From Heterotrichella gracilis (Eukaryota > Sar > Xanthophyceae > Tribonematales > Xanthonemataceae), in contig JAULBX010019965.1 in the NCBI GenBank assembly GCA_032358255.1, forward strand, positions 186,001 to 250,000: a DNA stretch of 64,000 nucleotides. Direction: 5' to 3'. A program made the translations under genes and the position numbers. Below the pieces are notes generated by a model that was given only the letters and a program-made list of their open reading frames with translations, had not been told where the DNA came from and did no database searches. This document shows positions 19,720 through 64,000 of the stretch, in pieces (the first letter of the stretch is position 1; each line of letters begins with the position of its first letter).

Positions 19720-22700
19720 ATGAGGGCTCAGAAAACCTCTGCCCTTTTCTGCAAGCTGTTGCAGCAGCTAGCCCCTCGGTACTGCCAGCAGTACGGTGTT
19801 GGATCACTGTGCGTCCCTGATGGTGTAGCACACAGCTTGAAGGTCCAGGTGGGTAACAGCACCTCCTTTGCAGTAACTAGCAGCGTGATGCTGTCATACA
19901 TTGTGTGCAACAACAACTTGCTTATCACCACAGGCTTGCTTCTCCTCGAGGACCTTCTACCCACTCGAGTCAGTAGGGTCCTACCCAACAACAGCTCGCC
20001 CCTTCACCAGCTTGCTACAGACAGAACGCAAAGAAGGCCTCCCAGATGGTAATTTAAGATCAATATCAGTTGTCAGAAGCTCCCCGATGCTGCATTGCAC
20101 CTCTCAACTCACAAATTGCCCCTGCGCAGGATTGGCTTCCGCCCCCTTGGGTAGCACTCCATCTGAGGTAGAATGGCACCAGGACATCTTATCCACTTTA
20201 CTGGGCAAGGGGGAGTTACAGGAAGCAGCACAGCACCTCACAGAGACGCTGCCGCCAGCGGCGCTCAACACGTCAATGTACAACAACGTGGTCAAGGCGT
20301 GCATGACTGCAGGTGCGTGTTTAGGGTTTAGGGTTTCCTCGGGCGCCACTGGGACGGGGCCTATAGCAACTCCAAGTCTGCGGTCGTTGATTGTGCACAA
20401 TTTCCTTTCTGGGGCACCTCAGCCCTTCAGCAGCAGCCAGTGCTGTCCATTCCGACACTGCCCCTACACTGGTCAAACTTAAACCCACCTATCAAACCCA
20501 GCCCCAAATGTCGCCAGGTTGTACACCAAGCGCGCCACCTTACTTCCTAAATCTCTGCCATCTTCCCTTGCGCAGGTGCCGTCGACACCTCCCTCCGGTG
20601 CCTGGCGCACATGAAGCGCCATGGCGTGGCCAAGGACGAGCACACCTGGGTCATGCTCCTGCGCGCCGTGGCTGCGGGTCCCAGGGATGGGGATGAGGTG
20701 GAGCGCGTGTGGGCGCAGCTGCAGCAGCACCAGCCGGAGGCCGCGCAAGTGGCTGCGGTGCAGCATGAATACGTGCGCAGCCTGGCAAAGTGAGTAGGCG
20801 ACAGGGCTTGTGGTTTAGGGTTTATCCCAGGGTTTATAATGCATTCTGACGGCATGCAGCATGCGTGCGCAGCCTGGCAAAGTAAGGAGGGTGGAATCGG
20901 AGTTGGGGTTTGGGGTTTTGGGTCCTGCATGAGTACATGCATAGCCTGGCAAGAGGGGCAACATGGTCTGGGGTACAGGGTTTAGGGCTAGGAGGAATTG
21001 ATCGCCCTATGGCGCAACAGCAGCAGCAGGGTCTAGCAAAAACATTTTCATCCACATGGGAGGAGGCAACAAGGCTTTAATTCTGGGGCAAGCGCCGTCA
21101 GTCCATCTCACATGGCTCACATGGCATGCTGTGTGTGTTTTTCCTGCCAGGTGTGGCCGGGGGGCGCAGGCGGTGAACGTTGCGCGTGCCTACCTGTCTG
21201 CCTACCGCACAGAGTGCCTGATGATGCAGCCAGACAGTCACCAGCCCCAGGTGGCGGCGCCAGGGGAGCAGGGGCCGAGGCAGAGCAAGACCAGCCAGCA
21301 CCACCTGCGAGTGGGTGCGTGGAGCAACATGACAAGAATTAGCTCTAAGTTTGACATGAAAGTCCTAAAAGGACATGATCGAAACCCTGAGTTGGATGTT
21401 GTGTGATAGACGCGCCAATGTCAAATTGGATGGGGTATCTGAGCTTAGTTTTTCAAACACCGCAGTGTGCAACATTGCCATGCATGCCGCCGAGCGCGGG
21501 CGCAGTCCGGAAGCCGCCCGCGCGCTGCTTGATGACATGCGCGCCGCCCGCATCACCCCCGACACCTACACGTTCAACACGCTGCTCAGGTTGGCGGGCA
21601 AGGAGGGGGCGGAGGCGGTGGAGGTGGGTGGTGCAGGGTTAGGTGTATGAGAGGGCGATGGGAATGGAGGTGTGCTTTCTTGTGCGGCGGAGGGGGCGGT
21701 GGCAGTGGGTGGGTTGGATGGCGGTCAAGGTGGGGGATCTCTTGTCTTTGTCATCTGTCACCATACACCTGTTGGACAATAGATGTGACGGGAAGCAAAC
21801 CATAAAGCCGATTTTTTCTGGATAAAATCACAGATTTTTTTGTGTGTCTATGTTATGTAAATCTAATCTACAGACGATGTTCTTAATTGCTAATCATCCT
21901 TTACCTTTCACCCATGCTTCCTACCCTCCCCTTGCACAGGCGGGCCTCGTTGAGATGCGGGCACTGGGCGTGGCCCCTGACGAGCACAGCTACACTGCGC
22001 TGCTCATGGCGCACGCTGCAGTGGGCAACATAGCGGGGGCGCTGGGGGCAATGCAAAGGATGGACTTGGCAGGTGGGGATCTGGGGATCTGAGATTGCGT
22101 GCATTAGCCAATAGGGTTGCGTACACTAGCAGGTTGTAGCTAGAATCTAGGGTCTAGGGTTCATCACGGCAGTTGGGTAGTCACCACCCCATCGGTCGAC
22201 CTCTAGATATTATTGGGGTTTAGGGTTTGGGATTCAGGGTTGCTTCTTCAGGCAAGAGCGTCTGCTGACGCACTTATGGTACACCACAAACCCTAGATCA
22301 TAAACCCTAATGTGTGCAGGGAGCAACGCGGGATTTGCGTCCCAGGGGGCGTAGGCTTTAGTTCACGAACTTAGCTGCTGACATATCCTGTGCTTTGCAG
22401 GGATCAATGCTGGGTTTGTGTCGCACGTGGGCCTGCTGCAGGCCTACAGCCAGGCTGGGGACTGGGAGGGTGCGCAGGAGGTGTACCACATGATGAGGGA
22501 CAAGGGCATGCGCCCCGACCAGGGCCTGTTTGTGCTGCTGTTCAAATCAGTGAAATACGATCAAATTGCAGGTGGGCTGAACCCTAAATCCTAACCCTAC
22601 GATTGTGGACCCTGGGATGCATGTGTACAATGGTGCGGAAGCGATTCCACATTGTAAACCCTAAACCATGACGCGCAACAAGGGCATGCGCCCTGATCAC

Positions 22701-38775: not shown

Positions 38776-39391
38776 TCGAGGGCTGGACCTATTTCGAGAT
38801 CGAGTTTGGCGCTCATTGATCAACGGGACAGTTTTTTATTGTTTGTTTAGTGAGCCTGATATCAACGTATTGGGATCAGGCCTGTATGGACAGCAGTACG
38901 ATGGGCGATGCCCTGTCCATGTAGCATGACTCCTAATGTAACTTACTTGCCAAGAATTAATGAGATTTCTCACAACTGACTGGGCTTTCACTAAAAAAAA
39001 AAATTTAATCCTTTCCTTTTCCTGGCAAAATGGCGGGAATACAAATGCATCACGATTACGGGTACATATATACGGTACGCGGTACGACAGCTTCAGGTTG
39101 CAGTCCAGGAATGTGCAGTAGCTACACCGCTTGGTCCTCCAGGACGGCGATACAATCAGGTTTGTAACATCGCAGCGCCCAAGTTATACTGGTGCCATAT
39201 CGAGGGAGTTGCCAGTTAGGGGCTCATATGCATGCATATTGAGCATGTTCAACTTGGTATTGTCTCTCCTTGCAAATAGTTTCTCGGGTGCAGACACACT
39301 TGTGTCCAACTCTGTGAAACTCAGTTGCATAGGATGTTGTTGATATTGTGCCAATTTCTTAGTTATAATTGTTTACATTGTTTGTGACAGG

Positions 39392-41492
39392 ATGGTGGGC
39401 AGGACATCTGCCTCTGGACGCGCCAGGAGCCACCAAGGGCAGCAGGAGCAGACCTTCGCCCTCCAAGGCCTCCCAGATCCACTACTCCAAGCTGTGCTGG
39501 GACACCTGCCAGTGAGGGAGCGGGTGCAGGCGCAGCTGGTGTGCAAGCACTGGCGGGAAGCCCTACAGGGACCCAGTGCAGCCTGGGCAGTGGTGGACTT
39601 CGACCAGCTGGGAGAGTATGTTTACGGTGGTATGCCAAAACGCTTCAGGCCATATCTACCCTTCTTCGTCAACCTTGACCCCTCACAGGCCGCACTCTTC
39701 CCAGAGGCCGCGCCTTTTGCCACTGACAGCCTACCACCAAGGCTGACAGCAACCACTTGCCTTGAGTTGCCTCCGTTGCTGCTGACGTGGCCGCGTCCTG
39801 ACTTGAACAGCATCGTGCTGTTCACGCCCACACAGCTGTGTAGCCTGAGGTACGGCGCACACTGGGGCAGTTCATCTGTAGTGGTTGGTGAGCCCCTGTG
39901 GAGCCGCTTATCCAGCCTCACTGGCCTGGAGGAGCTCCGCGTCTTTGCAGACGACATGCCAGAGCCATCACAGCTGCAGACCTTGTCCAACCTCACCTCC
40001 CTGCACTGGAACCGCAGTCTTAGCTTGCTGGCGCCTTGTCTGCACATCAGGGAGCAGATCAGAGAGCTCGAACTGCGGGTGGACAGCTGTGAGTTGTGGC
40101 CCAGGAGGGACAGCGAGGAAGTGTTGCTAGATCAGCTTGCACAGCTGCCAGCCTTGCACACTTTGTCTTTACAGAATGGACATGAGGTGCCCTAGATGCC
40201 AGGGGTTGAACATGCCACCGTGTTGGACTTCGGGAGAGTTTCTCAACTGACAAGCCTCCATGTGGAAGTGGCAGTAGACAGGGCAGTAAGCTACATCCTG
40301 CCAAGCCAGCTGGTCAAGCTCTCTCTTTCTGGACTCCGCCAGTATAATCGAATCTGGGCAGGCTGGCAGCACATGCACTTGGCCACCTTTGGGGAGGCGA
40401 TGCAGAGCTGTACGCATTTGGGGCATCTTGTCCTTCCAGGCTATTTTGTTAATTCCATGCAGGAGGACATCAGAAGATTGCCGATGCTTAGAGTGCTGCA
40501 GGTAGGAGGCCAGTTGGAGGATGATCACAACAGCAATGGCTGTGTTCATGTATTGCAGACAAATTATGTCTAGTATATTTAGTGCATTATACAGTAGGTG
40601 TGTATTCATGGACTTCCTCGCAATACATGGTGTGTTCATTGCCAGATCGCCCTACTGCATATTTGCACGCTATGTTCTAGGCTGTAATTAAGGCCATCAT
40701 CCAGCATCATTACTAAGCCCGCGTATCCCTCTGCCTGATGAAGTGTTGTCAGTTCACGCAGTTGCATGATCCCAACTACCAAACGTATATATACTACGAG
40801 TATATACGCATTGGATGACCGGTATACAGCCAGATTAGCGGCCAGGCTTGCACATGCAGCGCCTTTCTGTCCAGCATCATTCACATCGTTTTGAGGGATT
40901 GAGTGGACAAGGTAATATGTGTGTATTAGTCTTGACTTGTTGCTGTGCCTCCCGCAGGTGGATATAGTAGTTTAATTTCATTTGCATGAAGTCAGAATAT
41001 ATAATGTGCCTCCTGCAGGTGGATGTTCTAAGTTGCCGAGAGCCCATCAACATTCCCCACCTGCCAAACCTGCTCCAATTGGATGCCTTCGAGGGTAGGC
41101 AGGAACTCCGCAACACCCGTAGCAATCTGGTGGTGCACCTGCCGATGCACCCATCCCTGCAAATGAGCCTGCGGCACGAAGACACCGTGACGTTGAAGAG
41201 CGTGCATTGGTCGCTCTGCAGCTACGACATCAAGTATAATAGAAAGCACGGCGACTGGACTCTTTCTACCCTCGTGCACTCACACCAGGCCATGGGCGGC
41301 TGCGACACACCTGCCATGCAGTTCCACCCTGCAGTGGTGGCCACCAGGTGGAGTGGGCTGGTAGAGGAGGCGAGGCAGGTGGAGGTGCTGTACCAGGCCA
41401 TTGCTGGGCATCCCTGGGATCCACTTACCATTGCTGGGCATCCTTGGGATCAACCTACCATTGCGGAGGGCAGTGAGGGTGTGTGTGTGTGA
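39392..41492 (+). CDS. F-box / leucine-rich protein with one in-frame stop
   Basis: Exon 1 is 39392-40501 and exon 2 is 41019-41492. An F-box lies near the N-terminus (LPDPLLQAVLGHLPVRERVQ then CKHWREAL), followed by irregular leucine-rich segments such as LSSLTGLEELRVF and LPALHTLSLQNG. A single TAG at 40193-40195 splits the long exon; the same frame stays open on both sides for 267 and about 100 codons with continuing leucine-rich pattern. I see no intron that would remove the stop. Options: a recent nonsense mutation, a real end with a decaying 3' part, or an assembly error. If intact, the product would be about 527 residues and act as a substrate adaptor of SCF ubiquitin ligases. Exon 2 ends with a 30-bp tandem repeat. 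Confidence 0.7.
40945..40964 (+). repeat. Duplicate splice acceptor upstream of F-box exon 2
   Basis: TGTGCCTCCCGCAGGTGGAT is repeated 60 bases on at 41005-41024 with one change. Use of the first copy would reach a stop within six codons, so the second is the working acceptor. Confidence 0.8.
41401..41462 (+). repeat. 30-bp in-frame tandem repeat in F-box exon 2
   Basis: Two copies of a unit ATTGCTGGGCATCC..GGGATC encode IAGHPWDPLT and IAGHPWDQPT, followed by a partial third start (ACCATTGCGG). Confidence 0.85.
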
Positions 41493-48700: not shown

Positions 48701-51700
48701 ATGCCAGTATGCTTCCATACGGTTACTCAATATGTTTGTTGGCGTGCCATACTGGCATGGGGAGCTAGTATGGTGATATGGCAATATGGTGCCTTGCACC
48801 TCCCCCCTTTTGATCTTCATGTTTGATTAAAGTCAGTAGGGTAGTAGGGCTGTATGGTAGGGGTAGGGGGTGGGGTGGGTGGGGGGAAGGCATCATGCCA
48901 GCCACACAAGGGGGGGGGGTCCTAGGCACCATACAGCCATACAGCCATACAGTGCCTGTAAGATACCCATATCAAGTGCCTGTTAGGGTTGCGATTTAGG
49001 TTTTTAGGGTTTAGGCTTTAGGGTTAGGGTTTAGGGTTTTAGGGTTTAGGGTCCAAGTTTTCGAGGCTGATATGGCGGCGGTATGGCGGTATGGTGCCTT
49101 AGGTACCCCCCACATATTCATAAGGCTGTATGGTGATATGACGGTATGGTGCCTTTACCCCCCCCCCTATTCTCTTGGGCTGGTATGGTGGTATGGCAGT
49201 ATGGTACCTCATACACCCCCCCCCTTCTCCATTCAATAAGAGGACAAGAATATATCTTTGATGAAAGGCTTGTTATATATATATTTTAATGCTGTACATA
49301 CGGCTACCATACAGGCAAGGCTGTATACACATACTGTCATAGTGGGCCAACCCTCGTGGGCATGGGAGGGAATGTTGAGGCAATTATTGGTACATGTGCT
49401 GTGTAAAGTTTTTCCTTGTTAGGCTGAGAGTATACCTATGTACGGTAGTACTTTGCATTTTACTTGTATGAATTCCAATGTTTGCATAAATATTTGTATG
49501 AATTTTAACGCACAACCCATGGTGTGTACGCCCGCTTTCCAGCATGCGTAGTGTTACCACTTTATACCGCATGCCAATCAGCGGGTCCTCTGCCATTCAG
49601 GTGCCACCATGGCTGTATCCAATGCAATCCCAGAAGGCGCCATTTCCTCCCCTCCACCCGCACCCCTGCAATCCCCCTTCCAAGTCATTGCAGCCGCCTC
49701 CTCCCCCTTCCTGGCCCCAGTGCCCCCCTCCCCCCTCTCCCCCATCTCCCAGCTGTTCGGCAAGCACAGCCGCACCCCCTCATCCACACCCTCACACCAC
49801 AGCCGGCGGCTGTCTCAGGTCAGTAAGGTGGTTGAAAATATACTTGGGATTGCATTTAATATTGTAATTGTCTTGTAGATGTATTTGTGATTGTAATTTT
49901 GAGTTGGATTACATGCATATTAACAGTCATCGTTGCGTACACAACACCTAGGGAGGTCTTCCTCGACCCTGTGTATGGCCGTCATGCGCGCCGAAAGGTC
50001 CTTGGTAACCACGTCAGTGCATGTGACCTAAACTCCCCCTAGGGTCGGTGACTCTACCAAGCAGCACGCACATATCTGGCACTGCGAGTGTATTGAACCC
50101 TCCTTACAAAGGGATTGAATCGCTTTCGAGAGGGTGAATGCTACAACTGGTAATCCCTCCCCTCCTTCCATCATTTCGAGCAATAAAATACTTCAATTTT
50201 TTAAATGTGTTGTCTGCCGTCCCAGGTTGAGTCAGTCCTGCAGCAGGAGGGCCGTAAGGCCACCCACGACCGCCTGTCCTGCCACCTGTCCCTCGAGGCC
50301 TTCATCACCAAGCTGGACACCGCAACCATGGAGGTGGAGGAGCGGGTGCCGGTGCTCAAGCCATGCTACGTGCAGGTAGGCAGGCAGGCATGAAAGATCA
50401 CACTGGCTGTGATCAACTATCGCCTCGTATTCATGGGGTTCATGGTTTTCTTATTTACCTGGGATTAATGCACCCAAATTTTAACATGCATAGTCTGTTT
50501 TCTACAATAGAATCAGATGTGTAAGTATGTATACATGTCTTTTAGAAATTCCCTGTGAAACTTTCCTGTGAAACTTTTCCAGCTGCGGAACAAAAAGATA
50601 CAAATTCATAAGACAGGTAAATATGTTTACCCGTCTTTTTAACCCTGGTTTTATGTTCAGTCTTATAGACCAACTTGTTCATTCTCTTTGCAGGCGCACC
50701 TGGACCAGCAGGTTGAGGCCGCAAGGGACAGCGTGTACAAGCGCGTGGTGCAGACGCGGCTGGTGACCTCAGTCATCGATGTGCAGGTCAGCCAGTTTGT
50801 GAAGAAGGAGCTGCAGGGGCTGGTGCACTACCTGGCGAGGTCCTCCATACGCCTGTCGGAGACCGCCTTTGCGCACCACTTCAAACAGGTAAAGGGAACA
50901 CTTCGACGAAAGGTACTGGGCAGGAAACCCTGCCTAAGGTACCTACCTAGGGTATCTGGTGGAATCTGGTGGAATTTGAAAGGATAACTTTTTGAAACAG
51001 AGAAAGTAGGGAATCCTTGCTAGGGTGGGTAGTGACCTGCTTGGCCAGCAGGCTGTCAGGAAGTGCGCACTACTGTAGACAGGCAATGCAATTGTGTGGA
51101 TGAAGCAAAGGCAGGGAACTCATCACGCTCGCACACCACTAGCCAAAAATGGAAATATGAACAGGTCACACCAATTCATGCCACACTGTCCTCTACATGC
51201 AGGAGGACAGGGATCCCGACCTGGTCCCCCAGCAATCCCAGGAGCGGAAGTCTGCCCTGGCCTCTAAGCCCAGCATGCTGAGCGCCTCAAAATACATGAC
51301 CAAGGACCTGAAGGAGCTCAAGCAGCGCATACACAGCGGGGAGCATGACCCTGCCGCGTCAACGGTGTATTCCACGCAGCAGGCAACCGAGGCCAGCGAG
51401 ACGGACATCCCGTTGGAGGTGAGGGAGATGTGTAGGGTCTAGCGTTCATGCTGTCAAAATTGTCGTGAACAGCACGCATGTATACAATCTGTAGATCTTT
51501 GAAATCACTGGTTGACATTTTGCAATACATTAAAAAGCTGCTGCTGTCAAGCCAGCGCCTGGGGCCAACGTACCCCCTTCTCCCTTTGCACCGCTTCATA
51601 CGCCGTGCATTTGATCGTGCACTCAACCCCCACCGCAGGCCATCCACGGCGCCGAGCGGCGGTACGGCCTGGTGTTTGCCATGCACCTGTCGGTACCCTC

Positions 51701-54700: not shown

Positions 54701-57700
54701 AGCAGCAGCTGCACTGCCGACCAGGCTACTTTGGCTACGCCACTGACGTTGCCGCGCGCACAGCAGCCTTCAGCACCAGCGGGATGGAGGCCATGTCGGA
54801 TATGCTGAAATTTGAGGCGGATTTCTACCGCCAATTTGACCACTTTCAGGGCGAGGGTGGGACGGTCCCCGGGACTGCGTTGGCTGAGCTGGCGTCTCCC
54901 AAGGTGTGAGGGTTGGTGGCATGTGTTTATGCATTTAGTTTCAAATTCTGCAAAGTAGGCCTCTCCCCCTTTCAAGTGCTGGTTTGGAATAGCATGCAAA
55001 TATATGGCTGACTCCAACGGTCGACCCCCCTCCAACGGTCGACCCCCCTCCAACGGTCGACCCAGCCGTTGGCTCAGCACCTGAGTTTGAGTTGAGTCTT
55101 GAGTTCAACTAAGCAAGGGGTCGCAGGTTCGAATCCTAAGGGTAGCGATATTTTTCGAATTTCCCTGAACTTTGCGACGGGATAAAATGGGGAGCACGAA
55201 AGTGCGGTAAGCGGCACGACTGGTTGGCCACCATCTGCCACACTCGAAAGAGTGTCAGTTAAGCCTTGGCTCTAGAACTGGGGTGAGGCATACCCAGACA
55301 TGCTAACCTGGCTTCGAAGCTGGAAAGCAAATACTTACTTACTTACTTATATGGCTGACTAGCCAGGGTACTTTTGGTAACCGTTTGCCTTATTTAATAT
55401 GCATATGGCATGAGGGCCCCAGGATGGCTTTTGCTGTTGCAGCCCTTAAGACATCCCCCTTTTTGCCTTTCCTAGGTGTACTGGGGCCAGCACATTGCGG
55501 CAGAGGATACCGCTGGGTGCGGTTGCCTGTCGCTGCGCCAGGTGATGGAGTCGGGGGATGTGTTGGTGGCCGTAACACACGCGGATGTGCCGGACTGCAA
55601 GGTGGGTAGGGGGGCAGAATTTGGGCCCAAAAGACAACTGGCGGTCGTAGCCTTTTGGTGCCATGTGGTAACTGCTGTGGTAAAGGTTGTTATTTGCTAG
55701 AGTGCGCTTGTGGTTGCAAGGTGTTGACTTGTGAAGGACAGGACTGCATAGCGGATGGATGCCCTGGGGACAGGCATGCAATTTTAAATGTCACAGGGGG
55801 TGTTGTAATGGATGGACATTGTCAGTTAGTAGACTGAGATGTGATGCAACACACCGTGCGCCATGCCACTGTCACATAGTACTCCCCCCTTGTCTTTCTC
55901 AGGTGTGGTGGCCATGGGCCAATGCGGTGTTTGGCGAGCTGCACTTCAGCCTCATGATGGCGGTGGTGTACGAAAACGCAGCGGAGCCCTCGCACTTTGC
56001 CCCCCCCGCGCAGCCGCTGGTGCCCATCGGCGTCCCCCTGCCCTCCGCCCCCCCTCCTCCCGATAAGCTGGGGGTGGCGGAGGGTGCTGTTGTGCGGTGG
56101 GGGGTGCAGATCCACACCCACCGGGTGGATGCCATGGTTGAGATGCTGCCCAGGGCAACCAGCATGGCAGGCAGGGGGAGCGCGCTGGGCGAGGTGAGGG
56201 TACTGCGGGTGTGGGGGCGGGGGAGGGGAGGCATCTATCTCATAGAGGCTTATACTCTAAATCACAAGAGCACGGTTGTACCGGTTAAATAAAATATAGT
56301 TGCATGTATTGATCAGCGGTTGTACATTTGCAGGCGTCTCTGGCCGGGTGCCAGCTTGATGTGCGAGGTTACAGCTGCGGGTCCATCAAGATAGTGCTGG
56401 CGGCTGCAGGGGCAAAGGTCACGGACCACAGGCTGTCAGAGGTAAGGAGGGAAACCAGCTAGGATAGCTGATTAGAGAAAAAAATGAGGAAACCGTCTAG
56501 GGGAACCATAGGGTGTTGAAGATAGAACAAAGGCTAGACACCACAGGTTGAATGGCTTGGCAGTTGCTGGCTCGTGTGCTAAACCTTGATGGGGGCCTAC
56601 AGGTTGCCTTTGGTCTCCCCGTTTGTTGTGTTCATTCTCCTCCCGCCGGGAAATTAGCCTCCCTGCACTGCTTCCCATCACATCCCCGTGATTTCTCCAA
56701 CCGCAGGAGACAGGGTACGCAGTCCCCGTGATGCACGTGCGCCCCCTTGGCGCCCCCTCAGACCAGCCTGGCAGCACCACAAGCACCTCGGGCCTCAGGA
56801 CAAACCCATGGGCATCAACACCCAAAGGTGGGTACGCCGCACCGCACACCACTTTACACCACACACACATCCCTGTGTGTGAAACTGGTGCAGGCAGTGG
56901 AGGGGCATTAGTTTCGCCACCACAACCGCCGCCGCTGCCTTGCCCATGCACACATCTGGGTGCATCTTAGGTCACTCGCATCCATCATGCAAACCTAGTG
57001 CCAGGCACCCCCACGTCATAACTATGATCCTTGGTGTGCAGGGTCTGGCGCCAATTCCGGCTCGGGCCGCTTGCGGCGCCTGAGCATGTTCCATGCGGGC
57101 GAGGCTGAGCAGCTGGGAGACAAGCAGTTTGTGGTGGAGTATGTCATTCAGGGGCTGCCAAATGGACTGCCAGGTGGGGGTGGGTGGCTGGCGGGCGGGT
57201 GGTGGAGATGGGTGGTTGGCAAATGGGAGTGATTGGTGGGTGCTCCAAGGCATTGGGGAACTTCTTTTGGTTCCCTGTTAGCCCTGAGCCTCTCAACCCT
57301 ATTAGAATTTCTTGCACACACATAGATTTTGTGCGCGCCGTGGGTGCCCTTCTGTCCCCGGCCTTGAATTTCTGAACCTCTGAGCTTAAGGAAAACCCTA
57401 TGCGCCATCCTGACCCGAGCCTGAAAACCCTGGCCCCAGGTCCCCACGTGGCGGAGGTGCTCATGCGCGGCGCCAGCCTCAAGTGGCCCTACGTGCTGCA
57501 AACAGACTTTGTGCGCGACGTGAGCGGCTGCTTCTCAAACTACTTTTACCAGCCCACATGCCCAGCCAACCCCCCTGGGGCCAGCGCGCGCTGGATGTAT
57601 GTGAATGTGATCTCGGAGGAGGGCCACCTGCACCTGCCCATACCGGAGGAGGCGGAGTTTGGGCTGAGGGAGTGCTCAAACATGGTGGGTGGGATGGGCG

Positions 57701-60700
57701 GTTTCGGGGGTGTGGGGTGGGGTGGGATTGGTGCTTGAAGCGGTTTACTACCCTTTGTGCATGTGTTGCACTTTTAATTACGGGTGGTGTGCACCGTATT
57801 ACCGTGTTCCTTGTGCGTGGCTGTGCAATGAGTGTCGTGTTTGGCACCATGTGCACACCAACCATAAACCCTAGCACGTGGTATACAAAGCCGGCGACCT
57901 CATCCTAGCCCCAACCCCCACACCCTAAACCCTTGCGTGTGGTTTTTTGCAGCTGGTGCACGGCGGCCTGGTCCTGGCCTGGCACAAGCTGCGCCTGGGC
58001 TACTTCTGGGGAGGCAACTCTGAAACCATGCTCAAGGTCAACGCAGAGGGGCTGTACGCCATATTTCGAGGGGAGGGGGAGCGCGGAGGCAAGCCGCTTG
58101 ACCTGCTGCAGCCAATGGAGGGTGCGGTGGATGTTCAGTGGCGGTCGCCCCCCGGCGGCGCGCACAGCGTGTGCGTGCGTGCGAGCAGCAGCGAGGTTGC
58201 GCTGCACCTGTCCTTCCAGCAGGTGTACCCCATGCAGGTGGGTGGTTGAGGTCCCGATTCATGCACTGGTGAAAGCGGTCTGTCCTTCATTTTCTTATAC
58301 CTCAGCGAGAGCATTGCTCCGTGCCAAAACCCCTCAACCCTAGAGAATCCAACCCCCTTGATGCCAGGTAGCCATCCGCCTGTCTCTGAGAACATCGCCC
58401 TGTGCCAGTAACCCTCAACCCTAAAGGATTCTACCCCCCTTGATGCTAGGTTGCCACCCGCCTGGTGTCCGAGAGCATCGCCCTGTGCCGCCGCCAGCGC
58501 GAGGACTGCATGTCAGACATAGAGCCAACCACATCTTGCATGGCCAGCCACTCGGGGCCCTTCACCCGCCAGATAGGCATCAAGCTGGATGGCTTGTGCG
58601 TGCTGCTGATTGATGACCGCGCCTCGCACGGCATTGAAGTGCTTCATTTGCAGCTGGCTGAGCCCAGTGTGCGGTGGGAGGAGGACCGGGATGCGGAGGG
58701 TGTGCCGCCGGTGGTGCACTTTGGGGTCAAGGGGGCGCTCAACGTGAGGGTTTGGGTTTTTGAAGGGTTGGGGGTTGCGGAAGCTTGCATCTGGGAAGAA
58801 CAGGGCTCTTGGTTAAACCCCAAAAGTTTAGGGTTTTGGACGGACTGGGATGAGGATTGTGGGGGTTTGCGGAGGGTATAAGATTTCAAGATGACATGAA
58901 TACCTGTAAAAGATATATCTCTTTTCTATATTTCTTTTTTTTGTCGTCGTTGTTCTTTACAGGTGGCATCACCCTTTTCACCCATTTCCACCCCTTGGCC
59001 CCCTGCAGGTCTTGTTCCTGAACAGCGCCATTGACAGCATGGAGCCCCTGGTGGAGCGGTGGCCCTTCCTGGCATCATGCAAGCGCCGCGGGGCCAACCA
59101 GTCGGTGCTGCTGTCATCAGTTGAGAGGCTAAACATGGTCTTGTCGCCTGCAGCCTTCAGGTAGGGGGTGCGGGGTATGGGGAGGGAGCTGGGATGGGAT
59201 GGGGGCAATTGTGGTGGTCTGCTTGCGGCGTCAGGAAGAGTGTTGCGCTGGGGGTCAAAAACCCTTGATGAGGGTGTGGCCCAAGCGGTCGCTGCTGCTG
59301 TCCTTAGTGGAGAGGCAAATGGTCATGTCGTCAGGTAGGGGTATGTGGGTGCAGAAATCCTTGGCTAGGTTGTGGCTAGGGCACCATGAGCAGGGCTCAA
59401 CCTAATGGGCACCCATTTTTGCATTCCATAAGTAAAATACTTGGTTTCCCTTGGGCAGATCCCTGGGCGACGCCACCTCCTTCGTCTCCCTCCTCACCTC
59501 ACCCGCAGCACTGCTGTGCTCCCTCCCCTCACGGGCATCGGTACCCGCGTCAGCCAACCGCAAGCGCAGACCCTCCAAGGTCCTGTACTGGCTCATCAAC
59601 AAATCGGGGCTGCACCTCAGCTACTGGGTGGATCCCGGGGGCGGCAAACCCGGGAGCGATGGCCAGGGAGCAAATCCCAGGGAGGAGGGTCGTGCGGGGA
59701 TTTCGGGGCACGTTTTGGCTCCCGGGGATGAGTCTGAGCTCCATGTTGAGCCGGCTGAATCCACCGTGATGCTGCCAGACACGCAGGCGCAGGTAAACTC
59801 CTCAACCCTAAACCCTAAGCAGCTCCATGTTGGGCCCGCTGAGTCAATGCTTATGCTGCTGGGTATGCAGGCGCAGGTGGGGGTTAGGCTTAGGCTTGCG
59901 GTAGGGTTTAGGACTAGCAGGACAGGCAGGTGGGGTTGGGGCGGGGGTTGGGGGATGAGGAGGGGTATGTGGAGCAGACTGTGCTGCATTTCCACCAATG
60001 GTGTGCGCACAGTCTGCTCATTTGAACCAAAGCGAATGTGGCAGCAACCATATTAGGTACATTGCCGCAGACTGAAGGGGCAATGCCCAGTGTGCGCACG
60101 GTATACCAGTGGACCACCAGGCCCAAACCCTGCACAAGGGTGTCAACCCCCACCCCCTGCCCTCCATCCCCAGGTGAAGGCGCGCACCATCAATCTCCAG
60201 TTTGAGGGCGGGTGGGGCGCTGTGAGCGACGTGATCATCGACAAGGTTGGCAAGTACTGCTACCTGGTCAAGGCGCAGCACTCGGACGCGGCGCCCATGC
60301 CCATCATACTGGACGTCACGCTGGATGTGCGCACTAAGGTGGGGTGCTGGGACAGGGGTGTACTGGACCAGGTTTGCAGCTCTGTGTGTAGGGTGTTGGG
60401 TTGCAGGGGTAGGGTTTACGGTGTAGAGATCAAAACAGTGTACGTCTTTCCATTCCCGGACCCCTTGGAGGTGATAACCATCCACTCCCACTACAGGTGT
60501 AAACTGCACGCAGCGCTTCGTTTATCCAACATTCAGTGTTTTCGTTGTGGGCATGCTTTGATTACCTGAACTTCTGTTGCTTGTGCAAATGATCGCCATC
60601 CACTCCCACTACCGCCTTGAGAACAGCACCACGAGGTTTCTATGGGCACAGTCATAGGGCATGCAGTTTCGTACCCCCACGCACTCCTTCATCTCCTGCA

Positions 60701-63700
60701 GGTGATCACCATCCACTCGCAGTACCGCCTCGAGAACAGCACCACAGTGCCGCTGCACTTCCTCATGCACAGCTTCAGCGCGCAGGCAGCGACACAGGGG
60801 GGACAGGGGGGCGGGGGGCAAGGGGAGCGCACACACCCTGCCCTGCTGCAGGTGCCGGCCTCCCGCCCGCTGCCACCTGGCGAGAGCTGCTTCCTGCCAA
60901 CCTCGGCGCAGTGGTGGGTGCAAGTTGGCGGCTCGAATTGCGCCTGCGTTTGTAGAGCCTGCGAGCGTGTGCCGCGTTGTTCAGTGTTTTTTTCCCTTGC
61001 CCTCCTGTTGTCTGCTTGCCCTGTGGCAATGGCGCCAACATTGGGGCTCCCCTCCCATCCCGCAGGCCAAGGTTACGATCTTGCAACACCTAAAACCCTA
61101 CCTAGTGGTCTCTCCTGTAGGACCACCATGGTAGGTTGCGCAAGGTCGATCTCATGCAAAACACTAAAACCCTAATGTGTGGTTCTCCTTCCGTCACACA
61201 GGGGTGGCGTGATGTACCTGCACCCGCAGGGCTACCAGGTTGAACGCAAAGTCAGACGATACTTAAAAACCCTAAATGTGTGGTTTCTCAACTTCTTGCA
61301 GGGGTGGCGTGATGTACCTGCATCCCCAGGGCTACCAGGTTGGGCGCAAGGACAAGATCGACATGACACCTGGCGGGCTGAGGGAGCAGCAGGGTGTGTA
61401 CACGTGCCCCCCCCTGCACCCCACCCACCCGCCCTTCCACTGCTGCCTCAAGCTGGCAGAGGTGGCAGTACGGGTAGGTGGCCAGCTTAGGGTTTAGGGT
61501 TTAGGTTTTAGGGTGTACTTACGGAGGTGACGGTGCAGGTAGGTGGCCGGAAGGACGGGGGAAGGGTGGGAGGGCAAGGAGGGGATAGCTGTATACAAGT
61601 ACAATCCTATAAGTACATGAGAGTCGTCATAGAGGTGGCGCTGTTACTTGGAGACTGCAAAAGGGTGCTGTGCAGCTTCTTGTGTGTGATTTACATGTGG
61701 ATTGACCTCAAATTATTTGTTCCTTACTTGCAGGCTTCTACCGTGAAAGGAGCACCTTGCTCCTCCGCCCCTCATGCGAGGGCAGACCTTTCGCCAAAAT
61801 ATATCAACTTCCTTCTCCCCTCTTCCTCGCAGGTGTTGAACCAGGGGGTGATGCAGGTGGTGCCGGAGCACGTTCTCAGCTTCCACCCCCCCCTCACCCT
61901 CCACAACACCCTCCCCTTTGACCTCACCATCGAGCTGTCTGACGCCACCGCCAGCCAGGTGCACCACCTGGCCGTGGGTGCAAGCCTGGAGGTGTACCAG
62001 TTTGACATGGGCCACAAGGTCAAGATGAGCGTGCACCTGCAGGTGAGGGGCTGTGCAAAGTGCGGGTTCAGGGTTGTGATAAGGGGTTAAAGAAGCGCAT
62101 GGCGGGTCCAAGTTAAGCCTTGGCTCTATGACTGGGGTGAGGCATACCCAGACATGCTAACCTGGCTTCTCAGCTGGAAAGCAAATACTTACTTACTTAT
62201 GGCGGGTCGGGCATGGGGCATGAGGTCCAGAGTAGAGGGACATGGGCAGGCAAGGGTTTAGGGTTTGGGCATGGGCAAGGACAAGATGACATGCGCCTGT
62301 GGGGTGGGTTGAGGTTTGGGATGAGCGAGGGGGCCCAAGATCCTTAGGCTGGGGGTGTCCTGAGAGGCACAGGGTTGTGAGTAACGCCATTGTGTACCCA
62401 ATACTAGGTTGCTTAACCCTAAAACATAACCCTTATCCACCATTGGGCTGCTTAGGACCGTGCAGTCCAACACGGCAAGTGTGGGGAAGGGAGGTACACC
62501 TGCTTTCGCCACACCTGCTTGGCGCTCTGCTCCTTCTCATTATCTTTCAGCTCGTGTATGGCTGTCTTCTCCCCTCGGCGGCACCGGCGCTCCCCTGCTG
62601 GGTGCAGGCGTCGCCAGAGGGGAAAGCAGGCATGCAGGAGTTGGAGGTTAGGATGGCGGAGTTAGGCGCCAAACAGGTGTGACGCAGGCAGGCGCTCCCC
62701 TTTCCCGCGCTTGCTGGCTCGCAGCCAGTTATGGGTGGCGCCGCCCTCGTTAGTAAGGATCTTGAGGCTGTGAATTTTCAGACTGTCAGCAGGCCTGTAA
62801 GTGTTGGGTGACGCAAGCTGTGCGAGGGCTGCCCTTTTCCACTCCAATCCCTCACTCCACCCGGCCTCAATTCTCCTTATCCAGAGGAGTTACGGTCCAT
62901 GTGCGCTGTGACCATCCATTACCCAATCCCCATCTCAATCCCCACATCCCTGACCCCATCCCCGCAGGAGTTCCGGTCCGTGCGCGCTGTAACCATCCAC
63001 TTCCCCATCCCCTCCCAAATTCCCACTTGAATCCCCACATCCCTGACCCCATCCCCGCAGGAGTTTCGGTCCGTGCGCGCCGTGACCATCCACTACCCCC
63101 CCTCCCACCTGCTGTCGGATGCAGCCCGCAGCTCTCCCTTTGCTGACATACCAGGGCTGCGCCTGTCCAAGGACTTGCTCATGGTGGATTCGAATGTCAC
63201 GTCGACGCTGGGGGCGCCGAAGATTCTACTGCGCCTGGAGAACGTGGTGCGTGGGGGGGTCAGGGTGGAGTGGTGGAAGGAGGGTTTGGGTGTGTGTGTT
63301 CAAGCCTGGCGCATGGTTGAGAGTGGTTGGGCAGATGATGGGGAGCTGGGCCTGCGCATGCCTAAGGATCTGCTCATGGTGGAATCAAGTGTGGCCTCAT
63401 CATTGGGGGCACCAATTGGCTTTTAAACCTACCTGCAGGTCAATGGACCCCAGCCTATTACTCGAACCCTAAAACTAAAACCCTTTGTGCAGGACAATGG
63501 TTCCCGGCCTATGCCGTAAATCCTTAAACCCTAAACCTCCGTTGTGCAGGTTGACGGCCCCAGCCGCGCGCGCAGCGTGGTCATCTACTGCCCCTACTGG
63601 ATCATCAACAAGACCAACGTGGCGCTGAGGTTCAGGGAGAACATGCCGCACGCATCCATACCAACAACCACGCTGCCAGGTACGCGTGGGTGGGGTGGCG

Positions 63701-64000
63701 GTGGTGCTTGGGGGTAAGGGGCATAATATACATGAGGGCGTGAAGGGGAGAGGAAATGGGTCCAGATCCTTGCTGGGACCTACCACTGCAAACCGTTGTT
63801 ACCACAGCAATTGCCCAGGACCATTACGGCACATTTCCTGGCAAATTGCACCCCGTGCCACCCTGGGAAATTACACCCCACCCACTTCTTCCACACCCAC
63901 CCACCCACCCCTCCCTGCAGGCGCCGGCAGCGTTGCCCAGCCGCTCCTCTTCAGCAGCCGGGGGTCCATCAAGATGTGCGTGCACCCATCCTACTGGTCC
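42702..64000 (+). CDS. VPS13: VPS13-family bridge-like lipid transfer protein (continues past the window)
   Basis: About 43 exons join in phase from ATG 42702 to the window end, about 2,790 residues so far. First exons: 42702-42832, 42918-43015, 43163-43240, 43370-43482, 43787-43904, 44437-44562, 44765-44990, 45318-45558, 45919-46091. Largest: 52886-53385. Last: 63061-63246, 63550-63679, 63921 onward. The chorein-like start reads LQYSLLKGTLTARKVRFKPE then LDLPFSC. The VPS13 signature around 45900 is YRKLRP..WWHHAC..RHELRQAYERLY. Near the end VVIYCPYWIINKTNVALRF marks the SHR-BD / VPS13 adaptor-binding region. These proteins form a long hydrophobic groove that moves phospholipids between membranes at contact sites. 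Unlike classical VPS13, a hydrophobic helix (about residues 17-39) precedes the chorein part. Confidence 0.87.
43586..43611 (+). repeat. Interstitial telomere-like tract in a VPS13 intron
   Basis: Three consecutive TTTAGGG units, followed by a diverged region with further GTTTAG motifs to about 43740. Confidence 0.85.
47051..47165 (+). repeat. Decayed 115-bp copy of the end of VPS13 exon 11
   Basis: Copies 46848-46962 (exon end, donor and intron start) with roughly 88% identity by eye. Between them is a degenerate GGTTTAGGATTTGGGATTCA tract, and TTTAGGG units follow at 47200-47235. The copy stays open in the exon frame and keeps a GT donor, but the retained upstream AG context is weak. Confidence 0.9.
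48249..48269 (+). repeat. Decayed copy of the start of VPS13 exon 14
   Basis: GCAGCTTGAGGTTGGCGATG repeats the acceptor and exon start at 48326-48346 with one change, then diverges at once. Confidence 0.75.
48543..49600 (+). repeat. Large intron with telomere-like tract and TATGG minisatellite
   Basis: At 48982-49051 lie about eight TTTAGGG or TTTTAGGG units. On both sides are repeats of a 50-60 base unit with GGTATGGTG, GCAGTATGG, GTGCCTT and a C-run (about 48770-48810, 49080-49160, 49175-49230). This is the longest intron seen in the gene's first half. Confidence 0.75.
55014..55347 (+). mobile_element. tRNA-derived SINE, full-length-like copy in a VPS13 intron
   Basis: A 334-base insertion is flanked by a perfect 13-bp target-site duplication (TATATGGCTGACT at 55001-55013 and 55348-55360). 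It starts with nearly three 18-19 base units (CCAACGGTCGACCCCCCT), then a tRNA-like head with an A-box-like TGGCTCAGCACCTGAG and a B box GGTTCGAATCC at 55127-55137. The body ends in a TACT / ACTT microsatellite tail. No coding capacity, so it must have moved with help from a LINE. Confidence 0.85.
58304..58449 (+). repeat. Two decayed copies of the VPS13 exon 33 start
   Basis: The real acceptor and exon start at 58440-58495 (TTGATGCTAGGTTGCCACCC then GAGAGCATCGCCCTGTGCC) are echoed at 58357-58412 and in part at 58304-58330. Each copy is followed by AACCC(C)TCAACCCTA. Confidence 0.85.
59283..59343 (+). repeat. Decayed copy of the VPS13 exon 34 end
   Basis: CGGTCGCTGCTGCTGTCCTT and GTGGAGAGGC then ATGGTCATGTCGTC..CAGGTAGGGG resemble the exon end at 59101-59166, with a short deletion. 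Confidence 0.75.
59801..59877 (+). repeat. Telomere-motif join plus decayed copy of the VPS13 exon 35 end
   Basis: After the true donor at 59793 comes CTCAACCCTAAACCCTAAG, then at once a copy (59820-59877) of the exon segment 59736-59792, AGCTCCATGTTGGGCC through GCAGGCGCAGG. The telomere motif occupies exactly the junction between the two copies. Confidence 0.9.
60468..60640 (+). repeat. Two decayed copies of the VPS13 exon 37 start
   Basis: GGTGATAACCATCCACTCCC at about 60470 and ATCGCCATCCACTCCCACTA at about 60592 mirror the true exon start at 60702 (GTGATCACCATCCACTCGCA). The second copy extends through GAGAACAGCACCACG. Confidence 0.85.
61161..61252 (+). repeat. Decayed copy of the VPS13 exon 38 acceptor and start
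   Basis: The unit starts AACCCTAATGTGTGGTT, holds CACACAG and reads GGGGTGGCGTGATGTACCTG onward. The real unit is 61261-61352, starting AACCCTAAATGTGTGGTT. The exon-like part of the first copy is open in the same frame, so it could be an alternative exon. Confidence 0.88.
61484..61515 (+). repeat. Interstitial telomere-like tract in a VPS13 intron
   Basis: Four TTTAGGG or TTTTAGGG units eleven bases after the donor of exon 38. Confidence 0.85.
62109..62198 (+). mobile_element. 5'-truncated SINE copy of the same family
   Basis: Matches the last 90 bases of the element at 55014-55347 with about four differences, including GCATACCCAGACATGCTAAC and the ACTT tail. It is flanked by a perfect 10-bp target-site duplication (ATGGCGGGTC at 62099-62108 and 62199-62208). 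Loss of the 5' end fits LINE-type reverse transcription. Confidence 0.88.
62881..63060 (+). repeat. Two decayed copies of the VPS13 exon 41 acceptor and start
   Basis: GAGTTACGGTCCATGTGCGC (62885) and GAGTTCCGGTCCGTGCGCGC (62968) precede the true start GAGTTTCGGTCCGTGCGCGC (63061). Each is followed by GTAACCATCCA or a close match, and the second and third by the same CCACATCCCTGACCCCATCC spacer. Unit length is about 90 bases; the second copy is more like the real exon than the first. Confidence 0.9.
63344..63420 (+). repeat. Decayed copy of the VPS13 exon 41 end
   Basis: CCTAAGGATCTGCTCATGGT and GGGGGCACCAA match the exon at 63160-63222 (AAGGACTTGCTCATGGTGGA, GGGGGCGCCGAA). Confidence 0.85.
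63434..63549 (+). repeat. Two decayed copies of the VPS13 exon 42 acceptor and start
   Basis: GCAGGTCAATGGACCCCAGC (63436) and GCAGGACAATGGTTCCCGGC (63490) precede the true GCAGGTTGACGGCCCCAGCC (63546). CCCTAAAACTAAAACCC and TTAAACCCTAAACC separate the copies. Confidence 0.9.

Follow-up and report, generated by a model that had tools for sequence, protein, structure and literature searches.

Short interstitial telomeric sequences in mammals are described as insertions at double-strand breaks (Nergadze 2007, PMC2246262; horse and human, PMC7215372). According to the parts of these two reports drawn on here, bases in register are present at the break in 67-80% of loci in four species. A direct duplication accompanies the insertion at 6 of 130 rodent and 4 of 25 primate loci, and in the horse at 3 of 66 loci plus 2 complex loci, a share of 4.5-16% that is ascribed to staggered breaks; 31% of human insertions lie in introns and none in exons (PMC7215372, PMC2246262). 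Small tandem duplications also form at breaks with 3' overhangs through fill-in guided by CST with polymerase alpha-primase (Schimmel 2021, PMC8355091). In plants with TTTAGGG telomeres, short telomere motifs known as telo boxes are scattered through the genome, and the action of telomerase on free 3' ends has been proposed as their source (Gaspin 2010, PMC3022908, in the portion consulted).

The genome examined here resembles the mammalian case in the insertion of telomeric sequence at a break, in the bases in register (7 of 12 junctions on the side where telomerase would start) and in the occasional direct duplication. Unlike the mammalian loci, in which duplications form a minor class, 31 of 68 long tracts are accompanied by flanking copies; the rates are not strictly comparable, since the mammalian classes were derived from orthologous empty sites and ours from flank similarity. 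The likeness to CST-guided fill-in lies in staggered breaks that leave direct duplications tens of bases long, produced by a machinery that also fills telomeres; however, the available part of that report describes no insertion of telomeric repeats such as those in the present scars (PMC8355091). The start and end phases most often seen in the tracts here correspond to the plant telo box AAACCCTAA, whereas telo boxes are enriched in 5' UTRs and, in the portion of the source consulted, are described without flanking duplications (PMC3022908). As far as these partial sources go, the present case joins features of mammalian insertions, CST duplications and telo boxes, and is set apart from them by its share of duplications and by its position across splice junctions. 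No description of telomere-joined splice-junction duplications was found in the accessible portions of the open-licence literature searched.

TTTAGGG is very probably the telomere repeat of the host, because perfect 63-base arrays in the CCCTAAA orientation start at base 4-138 of 6 contigs, and 63-base arrays lie on the minus strand of 5 other contigs, for which the strand rather than the distance to the contig end was recorded. TERT and Ku domains are encoded in the genome, which also has 43 chlorophyll-binding family matches, indicative of a photosynthetic eukaryote. The rubisco large-chain domain was not detected, and a protein search gave one relative, at 53%.

The locus that drew attention lies in the window, the whole 64-kb stretch of DNA that was analysed, within a gene for VPS13. 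Its 13-exon model is open over 809 amino acids and carries PF25036 (VPS13_VAB, the adaptor-binding domain; E 1.5e-20). The fifth modelled exon (59459-59792, plus strand) is followed by the donor GT at 59793-59794. The last 56 exon bases and this GT make up the first copy, A (59737-59794, plus strand); the second copy, B (59821-59878, plus strand), ends in a second possible donor GT (59877-59878) and is identical to A at 45 of 58 bases, with a pair score of 32. The 26-base join between them (59795-59820, plus strand) consists of AAACTCCTC, AACCCTAAACCCTAA and GC, in which the 15-base telomere tract (59804-59818) reads AACCCTAAACCCTAA on the plus strand and TTTAGGG on the minus strand. The original prediction, a splice-donor duplication of 57 bases at 59736-59877 with a telomere motif in its join, is real, with copies of 58 bases. 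The motif had been said to fill the join exactly and nearly does so, 9 extra bases remaining on the left of the tract and 2 on its right. The description of the second copy as decayed is less certain: copy A and the join, 84 bases together, are in frame, lack a stop and end at the second GT, so that copy B could represent 28 extra codons. On the gene model, either donor would yield a readable protein, and copy B may be coding.

The same gene contains further duplications, all given here on the plus strand. A 2.2-copy array with a period of 82 (58307-58489) spans the acceptor that precedes the exon at 58450, with CTCAACCCTA and CTCAACCCTAAA at its two joins, the latter a tract of the 8-base-plus class (58417-58425). 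Another array (61068-61354) does so for the exon at 61302 and carries AAAACCCTAA-type motifs at 61166 and 61266, while the acceptor and start of the exon at 63550 are present in three copies (63434-63570), with motifs at 63465-63473 and 63522-63534. The joins reported at 58304-58449, 61161-61352 and 63434-63549 as similar to that at 59795-59820 turned out to be arrays in which every unit contains the motif (58307-58489, 61166-61354 and 63434-63570). Elsewhere in the window, the join placed at 22660-22699 also held: copies 22489-22521 and 22667-22699 (feature 22489-22699) are 82% identical, and TAAACCCTAAAC at 22655-22666 directly abuts the second. At 22305-22351, the motif lies to the left of the first copy, outside the join of the pair 22315-22349 / 22396-22430. 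A further pair, 20759-20798 / 20855-20890 (20759-20890), surrounds a G-strand tract at 20812-20836.

An exon end with its donor is duplicated at 61459-61483 and 61524-61548 (feature 61459-61548), with a 28-base G-strand tract, TTAGGGTTTAGGGTTTAGGTTTTAGGGT, between the copies (61487-61514); this clear case was absent from the original list. Four other duplications of the gene have no 8-base telomere motif in the join: an exon-end duplication (59091-59330), one at the acceptor preceding the exon at 60702 (60584-60745), an acceptor array (62881-63107), and an exon-interior stretch copied into the next intron (63154-63413).

Telomere tracts are associated non-randomly with direct copies in the sampled sequence, which comprised the window and twenty 10-kb stretches (264 kb) of a 68.5-Mb genome in 903 contigs. 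Pairs were sought as copies within 400 bases at a score of at least 18, with low-complexity pairs left out; the association count covered tracts more than 150 bases from any sequence end, and detection by flank similarity is limited to copies at least about 20 bases long and no more than 150 bases away. At score 18, the 264 kb contain 82 direct pairs and 4 inverted ones, and a single order-1 Markov regeneration of the sample contained 0. Direct copies enclose 39 of 191 tracts (20.4%), equivalent to 24 of 109 clusters and spread over 12 of the 21 sequences, compared with 3.2% of random positions, 3.5% of GC-matched positions and 4.5-6.2% of positions shifted by 200-1600 bases. The corresponding rate for 250 control motif families averages 3.1% with a maximum of 15.8%, and 0 of 250 reach the telomere rate. 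Inverted copies enclose 1.0% of tracts in the 264 kb against a background of 0.8%. The check set beforehand, namely that the motif should be commoner at joins than elsewhere, thus came out at about six times the random rate and three to five times that of nearby positions, with none of the 250 control families equalling it; the pattern, proposed as window-wide, extends past the window into the 264-kb sample (39/191 tracts).

Chance co-occurrence in a genome rich in both motifs and repeats is extremely improbable as an explanation. Motifs and duplications are both abundant, the telomere heptamer ranking first in abundance among 1170 heptamer families across the 264 kb, and single weak pairs can arise by chance; however, the association exceeds the random, GC-matched, local-shift, 250-family and random-window controls, the last of which show an 8-base telomere match in 7.7% of windows against 18 of 57 joins of direct-pair clusters. 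More alike direct pairs are presumably younger, and the motif is not richer in them: it occurs in 3 of 18 clusters at an identity of at least 82% and in 15 of 39 below that, or, by identity class, in 8/13 (60-75%), 7/26 (75-82%), 1/13 (82-90%) and 2/5 (at least 90%).

Long tracts display the association as well. The 834 genome matches to a 21-base tract include overlapping ones; from these, 68 places with a perfect 21-base tract each were taken, first in contig order and not as a random draw. At score 16, 31 of the 68 are flanked by direct copies and 0 by inverted copies, against 5.1% of random positions; at score 14 the numbers are 33 direct and 2 inverted, and 27 of the 68 reach score 20. 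The tract fills the join with nothing to spare in L037, L041 and L071. For the other 37 of the 68, no flanking copies reach score 16 and shorter ones are in modest excess, e.g., 5 where 0.9 would be expected at score 9 within 60 bases. Copy length was measured in a tight set, for which 132 raw hits were merged to 98, of which the 52 tight ones were used; this set excludes L089, L006 (for its overlap with L005) and any tract lying 60 bases or less from an end. Copy length ranges from 21 to 79 bases, with a median of 50 (n = 52). The median copy identity is 0.88 around long tracts (n = 26) and 0.84 around all tracts (n = 22; one-sided p 0.044), and tract length and copy identity are uncorrelated within either sample.

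The outer edges of the copies bear on the order of events. Among the 31 long-tract pairs, a motif lies within 20 bases of both outer edges in 0, of one in 15 and of neither in 16, and the frequencies per side, 6/31 and 9/31, exceed the 4.5% background, so that some pairs are arrays or copied tracts. If the tracts had come first and unequal exchange or slippage had then duplicated the flanking DNA, such edges would be expected, and the motif is indeed repeated along with the unit in some arrays (L009 9406-9763; window 58307-58489 and 61068-61354). That order of events predicts a tract at the outer edge, however, and the 16 of 31 pairs that have none within 20 bases argue that mere duplication of a pre-existing tract is not the usual origin; together with an uninterrupted form that lacks a tract (L003), they make it quite improbable as the general explanation.

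This uninterrupted form provides the empty site of one event, the only one for which a site without insert was found. At L001, a dispersed repeat contains, in order, copy, 21-base filler, 25-base tract and copy; this dispersed repeat stands uninterrupted at L003:2097-2179, and the 24 bases common to both alignments correspond to the duplicated site. A genome search with L003:2060-2240 gave 40 scored matches including itself, and the other 39 all span the duplicated site with a length within a few bases of that of the query. The dispersed repeat itself measures about 128 bases (L003:2060-2187), and one of its 40 scored matches lies on the contig of the window (C200:7540-7667).

The arrangement of copy, insert and copy is also the shape of a transposon insertion, in which the tracts would be tails of truncated retroelements and the copies target-site duplications. 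No common mobile element lies beside the sampled tracts: the two flanks of the 68 long-tract anchors yielded only 3 matches between loci with an E of 1e-3 or lower, and with almost no common sequence beside the tracts at these 68 loci the mobile-element tail was set aside. The broad copy length of the tight set (21-79 bases) likewise speaks against it, and we regard this origin as highly improbable.

The phase of the tracts points to the enzyme that may have made them. Among G-strand tracts of 9 bases or more, 52 of 132 end in GGGTTT and 0 of 132 in TTTAG; genome-wide, the three end phases counted out of seven in a 14-mer search gave 3383 for GGGTTT, 782 for GGG and 614 for TTTAG, and the two start phases counted out of seven gave 1372 for GTTTAGG and 869 for GGGTTTA. 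Judging from sequence, we infer that the bias towards GGGTTT ends could mark the template boundary of the telomerase RNA, and on the basis of these uneven ends telomerase is the likely maker of the tracts. Capture of ready-made telomeric fragments at staggered breaks, with no telomerase acting at the break, would leave the same final structure and no polarity; random fragments should, however, start and end at any phase, whereas the observed end phases are strongly uneven, and fragment capture is improbable.

The polarity expected of telomerase, with the tract abutting the end that primed it, was not found. Extra filler lies on the starting side in 12 and on the joining side in 16 of the long-tract cases, and in 23 and 24, respectively, in a second measurement on the tight set. 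Neighbouring opposite tracts (8-mers within 60 bases) occur in the order of a fusion 7 times and in the reverse order 6 times, one of the latter being counted in two overlapping loci, and thus show no excess of the fusion order. Microhomology of at least 1 base is present at 16 of 16 junctions on the telomerase-joining side and 9 of 14 on the starting side; once runs of 4 or more are left out (6/16 on the joining side and 2/14 on the starting side), the figures are 10 of 10 and 7 of 12, against 25% expected. Convergent tracts were observed at L010 and L017:4167-4192, where GTTTAGGG and CCTAAACCC stand in this order, abutting or five bases apart; they resemble the joint of two telomere-extended ends, and the pair at L017 sits between direct copies.

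The main rival to telomerase is template switching, in which a stalled replication strand would jump by microhomology to a telomeric repeat, copy some units, return upstream and re-copy the flank. It would account for the observed restriction to direct copies, for the microhomology at both junctions and for the missing polarity; alone, however, it leaves the bias towards GGGTTT end phases unexplained, as well as the frequently telomeric nature of the captured piece, which belongs to the most abundant of the 1170 heptamer families. We consider it unlikely, though of appreciable weight.

The insertion of tracts with duplication of the break site is well supported. The empty site, the 16 of 31 pairs without an outer-edge motif and the microhomology indicate insertion at a break, and direct rather than inverted copies of tens of bases beside the join (31 vs 0) are a feature expected of staggered-break fill-in. 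We regard it as moderately probable that the duplications are scars of double-strand-break repair by staggered break, fill-in, telomerase extension and joining. Two nicks, one in each strand and offset by tens of bases, would produce a staggered break, and filling in of the overhangs would turn the stretch between the nicks into two direct copies. Before the ends were joined, often at 1-3 shared bases, telomerase would extend an exposed 3' end by a few TTTAGGG units, to leave copy, telomere tract and copy. The fill-in may be carried out by telomere-type machinery, i.e., CST with polymerase alpha, and the end joining may involve Ku. Weighing against this reading are the missing polarity, the motif being no commoner in the more alike pairs, the uncorrelated tract length and copy identity, the outer-edge motifs above background and the 37 long tracts that lack flanking copies at score 16. 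The scar reading originally put forward therefore stands for the association, the one empty site, the edges and the microhomology, and telomerase is favoured by the phase bias and not by the polarity.

The proposed link to splice junctions came out weaker. In the VPS13 stretch 57601-64000, all 9 of 9 duplication footprints span a splice junction, compared with 67.5% by random placement of the same lengths; the nine footprints were taken by hand, and some exon ends in the placement test are off by a few bases relative to the 13-exon model. As the short exons and introns alone would give 67.5%, splice-junction targeting in VPS13 was rejected as a separate phenomenon, the count being near the expectation from gene geometry. 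Splice-site words are enriched in the wider sample: AGGT occurs in both copies of 30 of 52 telomere-joined pairs against 18.4 expected, which ranks it first of 136 four-base words, although the controls were random windows of all kinds and a plain bias towards genes could contribute. GCAG, CAGG and GGTG are the next most enriched words in the telomere-joined copies, and all direct clusters taken together show no AGGT excess (32/57 vs 28.7 expected).

Introns can be gained by duplication of an AGGT-containing segment, and the telomere-joined duplicated segments are likewise AGGT-rich. In contrast to that route, frames across hypothetical introns running from the GT of the first copy to the AG of the second are open in 8 of 39 cases, no more often than in controls (24.4%), and an origin of new introns from the duplicated segments is not indicated. 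Genic scars would be tolerated where they lie in introns or where the duplicated stretch has a splice site, the extra copy then being spliced away; a scar that duplicates a splice site would presumably be removed with the intron and hence survive.

A wider proposal, which we put forward tentatively and rate below even chances, is that telomerase serves as a routine break-repair polymerase whose genic scars, often with a splice site in the duplicated stretch, are spliced out and tolerated, so that it would act as a mutator, making introns longer and strewing exon fragments through them; as part of it, some thousands of scars would be present in the genome, by extrapolation from 24 clusters in 264 kb. 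If this were true, a role of telomerase in ordinary break repair would become testable in a photosynthetic microbe or plant-like cell, with abundant scars that would each preserve the phase, microhomology and copy divergence of their own event, and a mutational source could be named for duplicated splice sites and the lengthening of introns.

Several other repeats were noted in the sampled sequence. A tandem array with a period of about 135 and nearly five copies, about 90% alike, occupies L016:8741-9393. In the window, a perfect 18-base repeat, CTCCAACGGTCGACCCCC, is present in 2.9 copies at 55012-55063, a 55-base repeat (49082-49225) lies beside a cluster of telomere tracts at 48983-49060, and a 30-base repeat is present in 2.2 copies with 91% matches at 41398-41464. 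An open frame of 283 amino acids with an F-box domain lies at 39344-40192.
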